Made by a program: the position numbers and the translations under genes. Positions 8,399-59,650 of a DNA stretch of 64,000 bases are shown here, piece after piece. The notes under the pieces are model-generated. The model worked only from the letters and a program-made list of their open reading frames with translations, was not told the DNA's origin and did no database searches. Source of the stretch: Fimbriimonadaceae bacterium. Lineage in GTDB: Bacteria; Armatimonadota; Fimbriimonadia; Fimbriimonadales; Fimbriimonadaceae. The DNA lies in NCBI GenBank assembly GCA_019638775.1, contig JAHBTD010000001.1, positions 434,001 through 498,000 of the forward strand, written 5' to 3'. How positions within the stretch are numbered: position 1 is the stretch's first letter; each line of letters begins with the position of its first letter.

Positions 8399-10915
8399 GT
8401 GGCTTGGGCGGGCCTTGCTTCCCTCACCCGTCAACGGGTACCACGAACTACTTTGATCCGTTTTGAACTTGAATCCCGATTAGTCTCCGCTGTCCAAAAG
8501 CTCGTCAGTGATGGCTTTCTGCCCGCCGACGGGCTGCCCCGTATGGAGATTTCGGATGCGCGTCAACCGGATCATGGCGACCTTGCGTGCAACTTCGGTC
8601 TGACTGCTTCGAAGGCTGCAGGCAAACCCCCACGCGAAATCGCCCAAGCTTTGCTAGACTCGCTGGACGCAGACGATCTGATCGAATCATCCGAAATCGC
8701 AGGACCCGGGTTTATCAATTTTAGATTCAAGGCTGATGCTTTAGCGGCCTACGTCCCGCAGATCGTCAGGCTCGGAAACGACTTAGCAAAAACTGAATCC
8801 AAAATCCAAAATCCAAAATCCAAAATTAACGTTGAGTTTGTCTCCGTTAACCCTAACGGTCCGATCACGGTGGGCTCCGGGCGAGGCGCGGCTTTTGGTT
8901 CAACGCTTTGCAACGTCCTGGAAGCGGCAGGGAACGACGTTCATCGGGAGTACTACATCAACGATGGCGTCAACAGCGAGCAGATGCGACTGTTTGCAGA
9001 GAGTGTGATGTCTTTCGTCACCGGTAAGCCACTGCCTGAAAAAGGTTATAAGGGCGATTATGTTTCGGCTGCCGCAAAATTTGCCGAGTGCTACCTGCAA
9101 GTCTCGCTGTTTGGAGCTAAAGTTGCACTTGAGGCTGGTGCTTTTCCCACTCATTGGAAGTTCACCCCCGGACAACTTGTTAGTGAGTTAAGAACTCAGC
9201 TCAAACTGTCCCTAAATTTGCCGGTAGCTGGTCAACGAAATCACGAGTTTGATTCGATGATTCGCATCTGTGCTCTGTACATGAATTCTGTGCAGACAGT
9301 CAGTACCACGAATTGGTTGTCTTTTGTACAGCTGGAAAAAGCCATTGCTGTGGCATTTACTTATGTAGGAACGTTTCACTTTAATGGGGATAAGCGTGTA
9401 AAAAGCGAACCGCGATCAGTGGAACAAATTGCAACGGAGGTTGACCACCTACTCTACCAAGCGCTCAACGAGACTGTCCCATTTCATCCCTTGCCTGGTG
9501 ATGCGTTGCCAACTCTTGAGTGGTATCAGTCATTCGTGCAAAGCGTCATGCTCCAGAGACAGCATGAAGATTTGGATATATTTGGCGTTAAGTTCGACAC
9601 ATGGTTTTCCGAGCAGTCGCTCCACGAATCAGGCCAAGTGGAAAAAGACGTCGCCGACCTTATCGCCAAAGGTGCAGCCGACGAAGACGAGCATCGAACG
9701 GTGATCAAGATGGGCAAAGGCGGGAAGGTCGAAGATGTTCAATGGTTGAGCCAAGCGAGTGAAGTTGATGAGGATGATGTGGCTGGGGTCGAGACAAGGG
9801 CTGATGCCACCCCAACCCTCCTCCGTCAAGGGGGAGGGAGTCAGAGTCCTGAGGGGAACACCCTATGGCTCCGGTCAACCAAGTTCGGCGACGATATGGA
9901 CCGCGTCCTGCGCCGAAAAGACGGACGCCTGACCTATATCTCTAGCGACGTTTCCTATCACAAAGACAAGTTCAACCGGGGCAACAAGGCTGGAACAGAG
10001 CGCGCAACCAAGCTGATCACCGTGCTCGGCCCGGACCACCACGGATATATTGGTCGGCTGCACGCGGTTTTGGCAGCGTTGGAGCTGGAAATCAGCGATC
10101 AGCGATCGGCGATCAGCGATCCGCTCGACGACTTCGACTCCAAAATCTGGCACTCTCCCGAAGAGAAGGCCGCCTGCCAAGCCGCCCTTGCCAAGGCCCA
10201 AAAGGAGTTGGAAGTCGTCATCTTCCAGATCGTCCGATTTGTCAAAGAGGGCAAACCTGCCCCCATGCGCAAGCGCGATGGCAACATCTATTCCTTACGT
10301 GATCTCATGTCGGAGATCGGCAAGAACGCCGCCCCCAACGCCCCCGAAGAAGAACAGATGCGGATCGGCAAAGACGTTGCTCGATTCTTCTATCTGATGC
10401 GAAGCCATGACACCCATATGGACTTCGACCTCGACCTCGCCGAGAAGCAATCCGACGAGAACCCGGTCTATTACGTTCAGTACGCACACGCGCGCATTTG
10501 CTCGGTGCTTAGAAAGGCCGAGGAGTCGGGGATAGATGTTGATGGGTTGGAGGCAAAGTTAAAGGCAGAAGGGGCAGGGGGTGGAGACAATCGTCAATCG
10601 TCAATCGTCAATCGTCAATTGAATCACCCACGCGAGCTCGCCCTTATCAAAAAAATTCTCGACCTTCCCTACGAGGTCCAGCGTTGCGCCGAGGACTACG
10701 GCGTCCACCGCCTCACCACCTTTGCCACCGAACTTGCCCGCGCCTACCACGGCTTTTACGACGCCTGCCGCGTCATCCAACCGGAAGAGCCGGAGTTGAC
10801 GCAGGCCAGACTTGCCCTTTGCCTGGCGACGCGAAGCGGTCTGCGCGCAGTTTTCAACTTGCTTGGAATTTCGGCTCCAGAGAAGATGGAGAGGGATACG
10901 GGGACGGAAGGTTAG
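8399..10915 (+). CDS. argS: Arginyl-tRNA synthetase with repeat-derived insertions
   Basis: This is a class I aminoacyl-tRNA synthetase that charges tRNA-Arg. An N-terminal Arg-tRNA domain (EISDARQPDHGDLACNF) is followed by the Rossmann catalytic core (NPNGPITVGSGRGA, EYYIND, GVKFDTWFSEQSL, LGPDHHGYIGRL, MRKRDGN in the KMSKS position) and a C-terminal DALR anticodon-binding domain (NPVYYVQYAHARI). At 838 residues it is far longer than the usual 550-600. The excess is a stretch of about 165 residues between GDYV (216-221) and EDLDIFGV (about 388), where relatives have about 50, plus four short insertions encoded by repeats. The HIGH motif reads TVGS. The GTG at 8399 is the longest start; TTG at 8453 (LIRFELESRL) fits family N-termini better. 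Confidence 0.9.
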   Translation: MAWAGLASLTRQRVPRTTLIRFELESRLVSAVQKLVSDGFLPADGLPRMEISDARQPDHGDLACNFGLTASKAAGKPPREIAQALLDSLDADDLIESSEIAGPGFINFRFKADALAAYVPQIVRLGNDLAKTESKIQNPKSKINVEFVSVNPNGPITVGSGRGAAFGSTLCNVLEAAGNDVHREYYINDGVNSEQMRLFAESVMSFVTGKPLPEKGYKGDYVSAAAKFAECYLQVSLFGAKVALEAGAFPTHWKFTPGQLVSELRTQLKLSLNLPVAGQRNHEFDSMIRICALYMNSVQTVSTTNWLSFVQLEKAIAVAFTYVGTFHFNGDKRVKSEPRSVEQIATEVDHLLYQALNETVPFHPLPGDALPTLEWYQSFVQSVMLQRQHEDLDIFGVKFDTWFSEQSLHESGQVEKDVADLIAKGAADEDEHRTVIKMGKGGKVEDVQWLSQASEVDEDDVAGVETRADATPTLLRQGGGSQSPEGNTLWLRSTKFGDDMDRVLRRKDGRLTYISSDVSYHKDKFNRGNKAGTERATKLITVLGPDHHGYIGRLHAVLAALELEISDQRSAISDPLDDFDSKIWHSPEEKAACQAALAKAQKELEVVIFQIVRFVKEGKPAPMRKRDGNIYSLRDLMSEIGKNAAPNAPEEEQMRIGKDVARFFYLMRSHDTHMDFDLDLAEKQSDENPVYYVQYAHARICSVLRKAEESGIDVDGLEAKLKAEGAGGGDNRQSSIVNRQLNHPRELALIKKILDLPYEVQRCAEDYGVHRLTTFATELARAYHGFYDACRVIQPEEPELTQARLALCLATRSGLRAVFNLLGISAPEKMERDTGTEG
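8796..8826 (+). repeat. Heptamer repeat (AATCCAA)4 inside argS
   Basis: Four tandem copies of AATCCAA plus a partial copy lie inside argS, just before the conserved VEFVSVNPN strand. They encode a short Asn/Pro/Lys/Ser-rich loop (SKIQNPKSKI). A similar heptamer array in the opposite orientation lies between genes at 31681-31708. Confidence 0.85.
9816..9838 (+). repeat. GC-rich palindromic mini-element inside argS
   Basis: A hairpin CCCTCCTCC-GTCAA-GGGGGAGGG (nine pairs, one a G-T wobble) lies in the middle of argS. Together with flanking bases (about 9800-9862) it encodes a Gln/Gly/Ser-rich insertion (LLRQGGGSQSPEG) between ArgS motifs. Its arms match those of the elements at 11989-12028, 58760-58809, 59027-59093 and 59138-59187. 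Confidence 0.7.
10091..10121 (+). repeat. Heptamer repeat (ATCAGCG)4 inside argS
   Basis: ATCAGCG occurs four times in tandem (the third copy as ATCGGCG) followed by ATCC. It encodes a short insertion ISDQRSAISD after the conserved LHAVLAALELE helix of ArgS and keeps the reading frame. Confidence 0.8.
10588..10619 (+). repeat. Heptamer repeat (CAATCGT)4 inside argS
   Basis: Four perfect copies of CAATCGT are followed by CAAT, encoding NRQSSIVNRQL in the linker before the anticodon-binding helices. The unit has the same CAATCNN form as the array in the GH20 gene at 11938-11972. Confidence 0.85.
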
Positions 10916-11035: not shown

Positions 11036-12682
11036 ATGCAACTCCGCATGTGGAGCTACGATCTCGCCCGCGAGCAGGCCCCCACGCTTGACCACTTGCG
11101 CGACTTTATGCGCCTTACTGAGGACGCAGGCTACAACGCGTTCGGGCTGTACATGGAGCACCGTTTTGCTTACCCCTCAACCCCTTGGGCGCATGCCAAA
11201 GGTTGTGTCACACCAGAGATGGTCAAGACGCTCCAAGAGGAGTTTCCGAACACACCAATCATCCCGTTTATCAACCTGCTCGGGCACTTTGAAGGCATGA
11301 TCTACACCGAGCACGGGAAGCGATACCGGGAAGCCCTTCTCCAAGGAATGCAGGCATGCCCATGTAGCACCGACTTCATTCAGCTTTGCGAAACGCTCGT
11401 TGACGAAACCATCCAGATTTTTGACTCGGAGATCATCCACATTGGCGGAGACGAGACTTGGCAGCTTGGGCAGTGCGAGATTTGCAAAGCCAAAGTCGAG
11501 CGGGACAATGCTCTTGGCAAAGATGGGAAGGCGATGCTGTATGGCAGCCATTTTGGACCGCTTGCCCATCGAGTACTTCAGAAAGGTCGGCGGCCTGCTG
11601 TTTGGCACGATATGGTTCTGGAACATCCAGCCGCCCTAGAGTTTCTGCCAAAGGAGACGCTGATCTTCGACTGGCAGTACTTCAACAACTGTACAGAGAC
11701 GTCGCGCCAGTTCAAAGAGAGGGGCTTTGATGTGGTCTGCTGCCCGTCGATTCACACCTACAACTCGGTCTGGTGCCACTTGCCTCAAAGCGAGCAGAAC
11801 GTTGCCGATGCGGTTGCTTCGGCAGATGAAGTCGGGGCATACGGGGTTTGTGTGACGACGTGGGAGTGCGGGTTGATGGGGAGTTACGGGACGATTCTGC
11901 CTGCGATTAAGGCGGCGGGGGAGATGTTGGGGAATGACAATCATCAATCTACAATCGCCAATCTGCAATCAGATTCTCCCTCCCCTAACCCCTCCCTCAT
12001 CAAGTCTCCGACATTGACGAGGGAGGGGAACCCGGAAAACTATTTCACACTCACCGACGCGCCGCAAATGCTCGCTGCTTACGCTGAAGTCGGCGAAAGT
12101 GATGCTGAGTGGGCACGACTAATGAGTGTGGAGTTGCCGAAAGTAGGTGGAGTTTTCGGCTTTAGCAAGACACGCTCCTCACTCAAGGTCAGGCTCCTGC
12201 TCAACGCAAACCCATTCCTGTGCTGGATGCACCATCACGAGGAGCTTTGTGGCCTGAAAGGAGATGAGGCGCTGGCCATCCTGGATCGTGCAGCACACTT
12301 TGCCCCGAACCCTTCCATGCGCGGGATCACCGAGTTTGTGAAGCTCACGATCGACTTCGTACGCTTCGCCGAACAAGCCCGCCAAGCCTACGCACAAGGC
12401 ATCCCCGGAGTTGCGGTGGCGAGTCTCGCGCCATGCCGCCAAGTCTTCGAACACTTGGAGAAAGTTGCAATGGCTGCGAATATCAACTGGGGTGGCTCAC
12501 TGGCAGATATTGAGCGCTGTAGGATTGCCCACGAACATGTCGAGCGAGTGATCAAGCGCATCCGCGATTATGGCGACGGTTCGCTCGGTTACCTGCCAGC
12601 CTTTGAGATTCTTACCCATCCAAAATTCGTGCCGCACGATCAAGCCTCTTGGTGGCTTATCAATCGTTGGGCGAATGAGTAG
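11036..12682 (+). CDS. GH20-type beta-N-acetylhexosaminidase-like protein
   Basis: This 548-residue glycoside hydrolase has a TIM-barrel start (GYNAFGLYMEHRFAY) and the GH20 catalytic signature HIGGDE at residues 135-140, where Asp139 and Glu140 would orient the acetamido group and act as acid/base. A later CVTTWECG segment matches the Trp-containing substrate pocket seen in the family. No signal peptide is visible, so it probably works in the cytoplasm on small aminosugar oligosaccharides. An AAAGG lies 12 bases before the ATG. Around residues 300-335 the coding sequence is interrupted, in frame, by five CAATCNN heptamers and a 10-bp-arm palindrome. It follows argS by 120 bases on the same strand. 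Confidence 0.85.
   Translation: MQLRMWSYDLAREQAPTLDHLRDFMRLTEDAGYNAFGLYMEHRFAYPSTPWAHAKGCVTPEMVKTLQEEFPNTPIIPFINLLGHFEGMIYTEHGKRYREALLQGMQACPCSTDFIQLCETLVDETIQIFDSEIIHIGGDETWQLGQCEICKAKVERDNALGKDGKAMLYGSHFGPLAHRVLQKGRRPAVWHDMVLEHPAALEFLPKETLIFDWQYFNNCTETSRQFKERGFDVVCCPSIHTYNSVWCHLPQSEQNVADAVASADEVGAYGVCVTTWECGLMGSYGTILPAIKAAGEMLGNDNHQSTIANLQSDSPSPNPSLIKSPTLTREGNPENYFTLTDAPQMLAAYAEVGESDAEWARLMSVELPKVGGVFGFSKTRSSLKVRLLLNANPFLCWMHHHEELCGLKGDEALAILDRAAHFAPNPSMRGITEFVKLTIDFVRFAEQARQAYAQGIPGVAVASLAPCRQVFEHLEKVAMAANINWGGSLADIERCRIAHEHVERVIKRIRDYGDGSLGYLPAFEILTHPKFVPHDQASWWLINRWANE
11938..11972 (+). repeat. Heptamer repeat (CAATCNN)5 inside the GH20 gene
   Basis: Exactly five tandem heptamers (CAATCAT, CAATCTA, CAATCGC, CAATCTG, CAATCAG) lie within the GH20 coding sequence. 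The first five bases are constant and the last two vary. The array abuts the palindromic element at 11989-12028. Confidence 0.85.
11989..12028 (+). repeat. GC-rich palindromic mini-element inside the GH20 gene
   Basis: Perfect 10-base arms CCCCTCCCTC and GAGGGAGGGG are separated by 20 bases. Translated in frame, it gives a Pro/Ser-rich loop (SPSPNPSLIKSPTLTREG) that has no counterpart in ordinary GH20 barrels. Confidence 0.8.
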
Positions 12683-12688
12683 GGGAAA

Positions 12689-12733
12689 GTAGATTGTAGA
12701 TTGTAGATTGTAGATTGTAGATTGGTGATTGGT
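12689..12733 (+). repeat. Intergenic heptamer array (TAGATTG)n
   Basis: Five tandem TAGATTG units followed by GTGATTG variants start immediately after the GH20 stop. An inverted match (CAATCTACAATCACC, 12783-12797) lies 50 bases on, at the end of the convergent gene, so the two could form a long hairpin between the convergent genes. Confidence 0.85.
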
Positions 12734-12792
12734 GACCCGACATTCGATGCTGTCCAATCAACTATCGCTCGGCCCGAGCTCTCAATCTACAA

Positions 12793-53373: not shown

Positions 53374-53406
53374 AACAACTCCTCTCTAAGTCTCTCCCTA
53401 CTCTCT

Positions 53407-53476
53407 ACTCACTACTCACTACTCACTACTCACTACTCACTACTCACTACTCACTACTCACTACTCACTACTCACT
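53407..53476. repeat. Heptamer tandem repeat (ACTCACT)10
   Basis: Ten perfect tandem copies of ACTCACT lie between the acidic-protein gene and the terminase fragment. The unit length of seven is shared with the arrays in argS, in the GH20 gene and at 12689-12733, while the sequence differs. Confidence 0.95.
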
Positions 53477-59526: not shown

Positions 59527-59650
59527 CTATCTGCCCTATCTGTCCTATCTGTCCTATCTGTCCTATCCGTCCTATCCGTCCTATCCGTCCTATCTGTCCT
59601 ATCTGTCCTATCTGTCCTATCTGTCCTATCTGTCTTATCTGTCCTATCTA
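59527..59650. repeat. Nine-base tandem repeat (CTATCTGTC)n
   Basis: Nearly 14 tandem copies of a nine-base unit CTATCTGTC, with a block of three CTATCCGTC variants in positions 5-7, lie just after the GH172 stop. The unit resembles the shorter arrays in being a non-coding tandem repeat, but has length nine. It forms open frames on both strands (LSVLSV) that are not genes. Confidence 0.95.

Follow-up and report, generated by a model that had tools for sequence, protein, structure and literature searches.

How three different heptamer arrays came to lie within one essential tRNA synthetase gene, without breaking its reading frame, is the question raised by this locus. The window (the whole 64,000-nucleotide stretch of Fimbriimonadaceae DNA analysed here) contains an ORF at 8399–10915 on the forward strand that is identified as ArgS by TIGR00456 (346.7 bits against a cut-off of 261.65); homology with other ArgRS starts near 8465, and residues are counted from that position. 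Tandem Repeats Finder, the source of the array coordinates, copy numbers and percentages, places AATCCAA ×4.4 (100%) at 8796–8826 (array 1, residues 111–121), ATCAGCG ×4.4 (91%, with one variant unit, ATCGGCG) at 10091–10121 (array 2, residues 543–553), and CAATCGT ×4.6 (100%) at 10588–10619 (array 3, residues 708–719), all on the forward strand. The arrays share a single open frame and are translated as ESKIQNPKSKI, ISDQRSAISDP and DNRQSSIVNRQL, respectively; an earlier note on this DNA had described three in-frame heptamer arrays of about four copies each, and both the program and the ORF bear this out. They are direct tandem heptamers, and the palindromic unit of a REP/RPE-type mobile element is not found in them.

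The most conservative answer, which the earlier note had itself named as the case against its reading, is that the arrays are ordinary conserved coding sequence, repetitive only in appearance, so that relatives would carry the same residues without the DNA repeat. We aligned argS with 44 other loci (some representing one genome reached twice), its named relatives being Fimbriimonadaceae, Chthonomonas and further Armatimonadota and the nearest genomes compared belonging to other genera, and the residues at all three array sites differ across them. A period-7 scan of the 44 ORFs returned only two segments, neither of which falls at sites 1 or 3; the first, in locus L017, is a weak G-rich period-7 stretch in the site 2 loop. 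Further, the window as a whole contains five period-7 tracts of at least 17 nt, where 30 first-order Markov shuffles lead one to expect 0.03. With both the shared residues and any clear tandem repeat absent from relatives, this explanation is refuted, and we give it essentially no weight.

The second segment is of a different kind. In L054, from Fimbriimonadaceae isolate SJ693 (another genus), argS carries a strong, in-frame, 119-nt array of 17 units of the AACACCC/AACTCCC/AGCGCCC type (L054:132–250), in a loop that matches residues ~430–465 here. As the arrays of the two genes occupy different loops and are built of different units, heptamers have entered argS at least twice. The corresponding loop in the present gene holds a palindrome-type insert (9761–9850, forward strand, residues 433–462), with a C-rich/G-rich palindrome, which exceeds the length found in 38 of 41 relatives. 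There is also an insert of ~140 residues, the longest among 40 sequences compared, whose low-confidence part (residues 225–342) spans 9137–9490 on the forward strand; no Pfam match was found within that region.

Whether the arrays expand argS, as had been proposed, depends on the site. The site 3 loop, at 36 residues, is the longest of all and exceeds the relatives' median of 20 by 16 (n = 41), and here the proposal holds. The loops at sites 1 and 2 are hardly longer than those of relatives (35 residues against a median of 32, n = 37, or +3; and 41 against 40, n = 41, or +1), so that at these sites the array has taken the place of existing linker residues and is not a simple addition. The linkers that hold the arrays vary in relatives too. 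An AlphaFold2 model built from an alignment of 21 sequences (mean pLDDT 77.6, pTM 0.78) places array 1 in coil between a helix of the N-terminal domain and the first strand of the catalytic domain, array 2 in coil, and array 3 mostly in coil. Averaged over blocks of ten residues, pLDDT is 64–76 where the bulk of each array lies, compared with 84–97 for most of the core; in the same model the inserts at 225–342 and 433–462 fall mostly below 50, the longer insert being drawn as loose helices. The suggestion that the arrays are translated as short loops therefore agrees with the model, in which all three are predicted to lie in coil linkers.

The arrays are not a peculiarity of argS; they are part of a genome-wide family. 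A sample of 2.824 Mb of the same 4.3 Mb Armatimonadota genome (2,102 genes, predicted with a simple codon model made for this analysis; 82.4% coding) contains 223 period-7 segments, followed by periods 14 (118) and 21 (108), while periods that are not multiples of seven reach at most 37. Perfect period-7 tracts number 59 in 864 kb, against at most 11 for any other period. By placement, 148 of the 223 arrays are intergenic, 40 lie at gene edges and 35, distributed over 17 genes, are internal (at least 30 nt within the gene); arrays are thus strongly depleted inside genes. When genes were scanned apart, 37 period-7 segments were recovered in them, while no period outside the multiples of 3 and 7 yielded more than three segments there, so one to three of the internal arrays could be due to chance. 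The excess of period 7, together with the dispersed and mostly intergenic placement, assigns the arrays to the class of dispersed heptanucleotide repeats. Intergenic arrays show a mild convergent excess: 74 lie in tandem, 42 in convergent and 32 in divergent settings, compared with intergenic base shares of 57%, 19% and 24%. A bias by replication strand was considered and set aside as too weak: of 172 arrays with an orientation, 102 have ATC on the strand richer in C.

Members of this family also surround argS within the window. The neighbouring GH20-family gene (11036–12682) holds a degenerate array of AATCNNC units at 11937–11971 on the forward strand; directly after it, five copies of GTAGATT followed by GATTGGT occupy intergenic DNA at 12689–12735, and CTCACTA ×11.9 lies between genes at 53394–53476 (neither with a strand assigned). 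A plasmid search with window positions 12640–12790 gave one weak match (E = 5); one with the repeat alone gave none, as its low-complexity filter would lead one to expect. Elsewhere in the window, at 59527–59649, is a tandem array of nine-base units, CTATCTGTC ×13.7.

The genes with internal arrays include argS, leuS, metG, miaB, trmFO, mutS, hisH and lpxK, as well as a UbiD-type decarboxylase, a GlcD-type oxidase and GH20/GH78-type hydrolases; gene 718560 matches no family, and the true start may lie downstream of its array. It was considered whether enzymes acting on tRNA are favoured hosts, given that they account for five of the 17 genes (argS, leuS, metG, miaB, trmFO), but two of 20 randomly drawn long genes were themselves synthetases, so that enrichment is not established and the idea was dropped. 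In mutS (C1:1004387–1007269; L210:6387–9269, reverse strand), three arrays lie at residues 630–682, just ahead of the ATPase domain (domain V, residues 715–901); if mismatch repair were impaired, repeats might thereby be favoured. In miaB (C2:51733–53622) and trmFO (C2:230612–232456), compound inserts of more than 100 residues alternate heptamer-encoded peptides with palindrome-encoded ones, and one palindrome-type peptide, PLEGEGCERSEQGRG, occurs twice in trmFO.

If the argS arrays belong to a dispersed family, the question becomes how members of that family reach new places. Many arrays are mosaics, built of heptamers that change from one to the next while ATC (GAT on the opposite strand) stays in phase; among arrays of at least 21 nt, 151 of 217 carry ATC in at least 75% of their units. 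The commonest unit, AATCCAA (35 overlapping pattern matches in the genome), recurs at 20 sites whose flanking sequences are unrelated. Thirteen pairs of distant arrays have a mosaic 24-mer in common, where 200 unit shuffles gave 3.9 ± 1.8 and never more than 9, although the excess is modest and the null, which shuffles units within each array, loses block structure; the longest shared mosaic stretch is 48 nt, in places 77 kb apart. It is therefore probable, in our judgement, that the argS arrays are copies of a lineage-specific heptanucleotide repeat family dispersed across the genome. New places would be reached by copying of existing arrays, through recombination, gene conversion or template switching; that copying takes place between sites is suggested by the recurrence of one unit amid unrelated flanks and by the mosaic-sharing pairs. 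Arrays may then lengthen or shorten by slippage in seven-base steps, as their block structure and the literature suggest; PMC4679880 describes differences between Cyanothece strains that are mostly 7-nt increments. We found no enzyme or transposition signature for array spread in this analysis.

The same observations bear on a simpler alternative, in which every array had a separate origin, a short duplication made by chance and enlarged by replication slippage, with no copying between places. Heptamers lead the long simple repeats of many bacteria in abundance, which Mrazek and colleagues put down to polymerase slippage (as reported in PMC4679880 and PMC4692102), and period 7 dominates IMG/VR contigs as well, with other units; both are what independent slippage would lead one to expect. 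However, it does not readily account for AATCCAA in 20 places with unrelated flanks, for an ATC phase kept across different units, for a mosaic order shared beyond shuffles, or for the lack of the ATC pattern in 83 of 101 genomes searched. We regard independent slippage as unlikely, though as the most serious of the competing explanations.

The distribution of the pattern among genomes is patchy. ATC(N4ATC)×4 is present in 18 of the 101 genomes searched, with 489 matches in this genome, 632 in G013, 60 in G078, 50 in G092, 23 in G012, and 21 each in G090 and G093; it is absent from most genomes of the same family. A control with the core reversed (CTA) gave 45 matches in this genome. The control outnumbers ATC in G006, G064, G068, G074, G081, G090, G094 and G099, and also, in a separate search, in G102, G103 and G111; ATC is therefore a habit of certain lineages and not a rule. 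A universal NATCNNN core across phyla, an idea prompted by the units GGGAATC, GGGGATT, TAACTGA and GATAGRA in PMC4692102, PMC4679880 and PMC6749651, failed: among 82 other arrays on IMG/VR contigs (12 loci on 11 contigs, fetched by AATCCAA), ATC is in phase in 19, near the chance figure of ~22% (a rough hand estimate), compared with 107 of 166 in this genome by the same measure. Array-rich IMG/VR contigs show period 7 too, but their units are different ones, and the arrays are often paired in inverted orientation about a short core. In L263 and L270 the paired arrays have complementary units with a short core between them, and one inverted pair recurs almost unchanged 8 kb away in L263; such pairs could form hairpins and look mobile. 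Inverted neighbouring pairs are rare in the present genome (4 of 48). That the unit sequence varies by lineage while the period stays constant suggests that the copying machinery, and not the sequence, sets the period; a proposal from Mrazek and colleagues based on polymerase geometry is relayed in PMC4679880.

A seven-base unit does not by itself preserve a reading frame, and the earlier note held that only certain copy numbers do so, which would imply selection on copy number or an insertion mechanism favouring frame-preserving lengths. A preferred length class inside genes is indeed seen: arrays of 29–35 nt make up 20 of the 35 inside genes against 30 of the 148 between them (Fisher p = 3e-5), a length class whose choice was prompted by the argS arrays themselves and a count in which arrays in one gene are not independent. 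Compared only with the neighbouring classes of 22–28 and 36–42 nt, the difference remains (p = 0.009; p = 0.025 with argS removed), and by family it is not significant for AATCCAA (p = 0.15) and stands at p = 0.055 for the others. This clustering fits a reading-frame filter, and the 29–35 nt class is what selection for net multiples of 21 should leave if one heptamer-length stretch pre-existed. Neither selection on copy number nor such a mechanism is needed, however, because AATCCAA arrays have one modal core length, shared by those in genes (5 of 8) and those in intergenic DNA (7 of 12). Orientation tells a similar story. ATC reads in the sense direction in 24 of the 35 internal arrays and in antisense in four (seven unassigned), while for intergenic arrays 291 of 351 frame readings lack a stop codon with ATC in sense, and 147 of 351 with it in antisense; the orientation of internal arrays thus fits a stop-codon filter. 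Arrays surviving within genes would be those with a net change that is a multiple of three, no stop codon, and a linker tolerating the extra residues. Purifying selection after the event suffices to explain the frame pattern.

Under copying followed by such filtering, the argS arrays are in all likelihood passengers with little or no effect on fitness. The opposite possibility, that the inserted peptides are adaptive (tuning ArgRS stability or interactions, for example) and are kept by selection, gains something from the fact that argS has been hit three times and that a different genus has an argS array of its own. But the same peptides (SKIQNPKSKI, SAISDQ) occur in unrelated enzymes, and arrays are strongly depleted in genes and sit, in ArgS, in predicted coil of lowered confidence; we consider an adaptive role improbable. 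Still less plausible is that the arrays act as phase-variation switches of argS through copy number. Heptanucleotide repeats can act as contingency loci, the Haemophilus adhesin HMW1A reportedly being one such case, but contingency loci are expected in dispensable genes, and argS is essential and is the sole copy, a search of this genome for a second ArgRS having found none. Three serial switches in an essential gene would presumably be lethal at the rates of contingency loci, and similar arrays occur in leuS, metG, mutS, miaB and trmFO; we hold this explanation to be highly implausible.

A more speculative variant, which we think rather doubtful, is that in some Armatimonadota an active, sequence-specific process writes ready-made NATCNNN arrays, some four units long, into new sites, essential genes included. 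If so, the agent might be an enzyme or a templated repair pathway that recognises NATCNNN heptamers, an array would be gained by one-step insertion and would not build up gradually through slippage, and the uneven occurrence across genera would track the presence of the machinery.

Whichever route the copies take, repeats of this kind are already known. Small palindromic elements of Rickettsia are said to be mobile and to lie inside genes, and they resemble the present arrays in being small in-frame repeats accepted in housekeeping genes; those elements are palindromes, however, whereas the arrays here are tandem heptamers, although palindrome-like inserts do adjoin heptamers here in argS (9761–9850), miaB and trmFO. 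Heterocystous cyanobacteria are likewise said to carry heptanucleotide repeats, termed STRR. Compared with the dispersed heptanucleotide SSRs of Mrazek and colleagues, STRR among them, the present arrays share the seven-base unit, the mostly intergenic placement, the variable units, the patchiness among relatives and the under-representation in coding strands; they differ in being NATCNNN-centred, with most units not G-rich, and in that a minority lie mid-gene, in frame, in housekeeping enzymes. PMC4692102 describes arrays of GGGAATC in Xanthomonas and GGGGA(T/C)T in Nostoc, with lengths that vary between close Xanthomonas. The TAACTGA repeats of Beggiatoaceae, cyanobacteria and Bacteroidetes (PMC4679880) are also heptamers, in two to six or more copies, patchy and in some cases within ORFs, and TAACTGA read circularly contains GAT, like the arrays here. 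They lie, however, mostly just upstream of start codons, and within ORFs mainly at protein ends, unlike the internal linkers of ArgS and others. Coding tandem repeats of Borgs (PMC9879509) likewise occur in genes only where the frame is kept, and encode flexible regions, but their unit lengths are divisible by three, whereas here the unit is seven and the frame is set by total length. Chloroflexus has heptamer satellites such as GATAGRA (PMC6749651). Among the matches listed in searches of the Armatimonadetes literature for heptamer or tandem repeats there is no report of these arrays, and among those listed for the repeat unit or peptide letters the titles look unrelated.

The new angle is a modest one, lying in arrays placed in linkers in the middle of essential enzymes and in the evidence for a frame filter. 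The arrays offer a clean case of a repeat persisting inside essential genes although its unit length is not divisible by three; they show which filters count, namely frame, stop codons and linker position; and they bear on why seven bases is a favoured repeat length in many bacteria.

Apart from its arrays, this ArgRS departs from the class I motifs. Class I synthetases carry the canonical HxGH (HIGH) and KMSKS motifs. At the HIGH position (residues 133–140 here), all 39 rows with data from the same family, which include this sequence and count certain genomes twice, read P[IV]T[IV]GS[GA]R, and at the KMSKS loop (residues 601–606) all 42 same-family rows read MRKRDG. An ArgRS that is conserved, has no second copy beside it and lacks both histidines of the HIGH motif would be worth biochemical study. 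Three deeper relatives (L057, L058 and L062) retain H[LV]GH.
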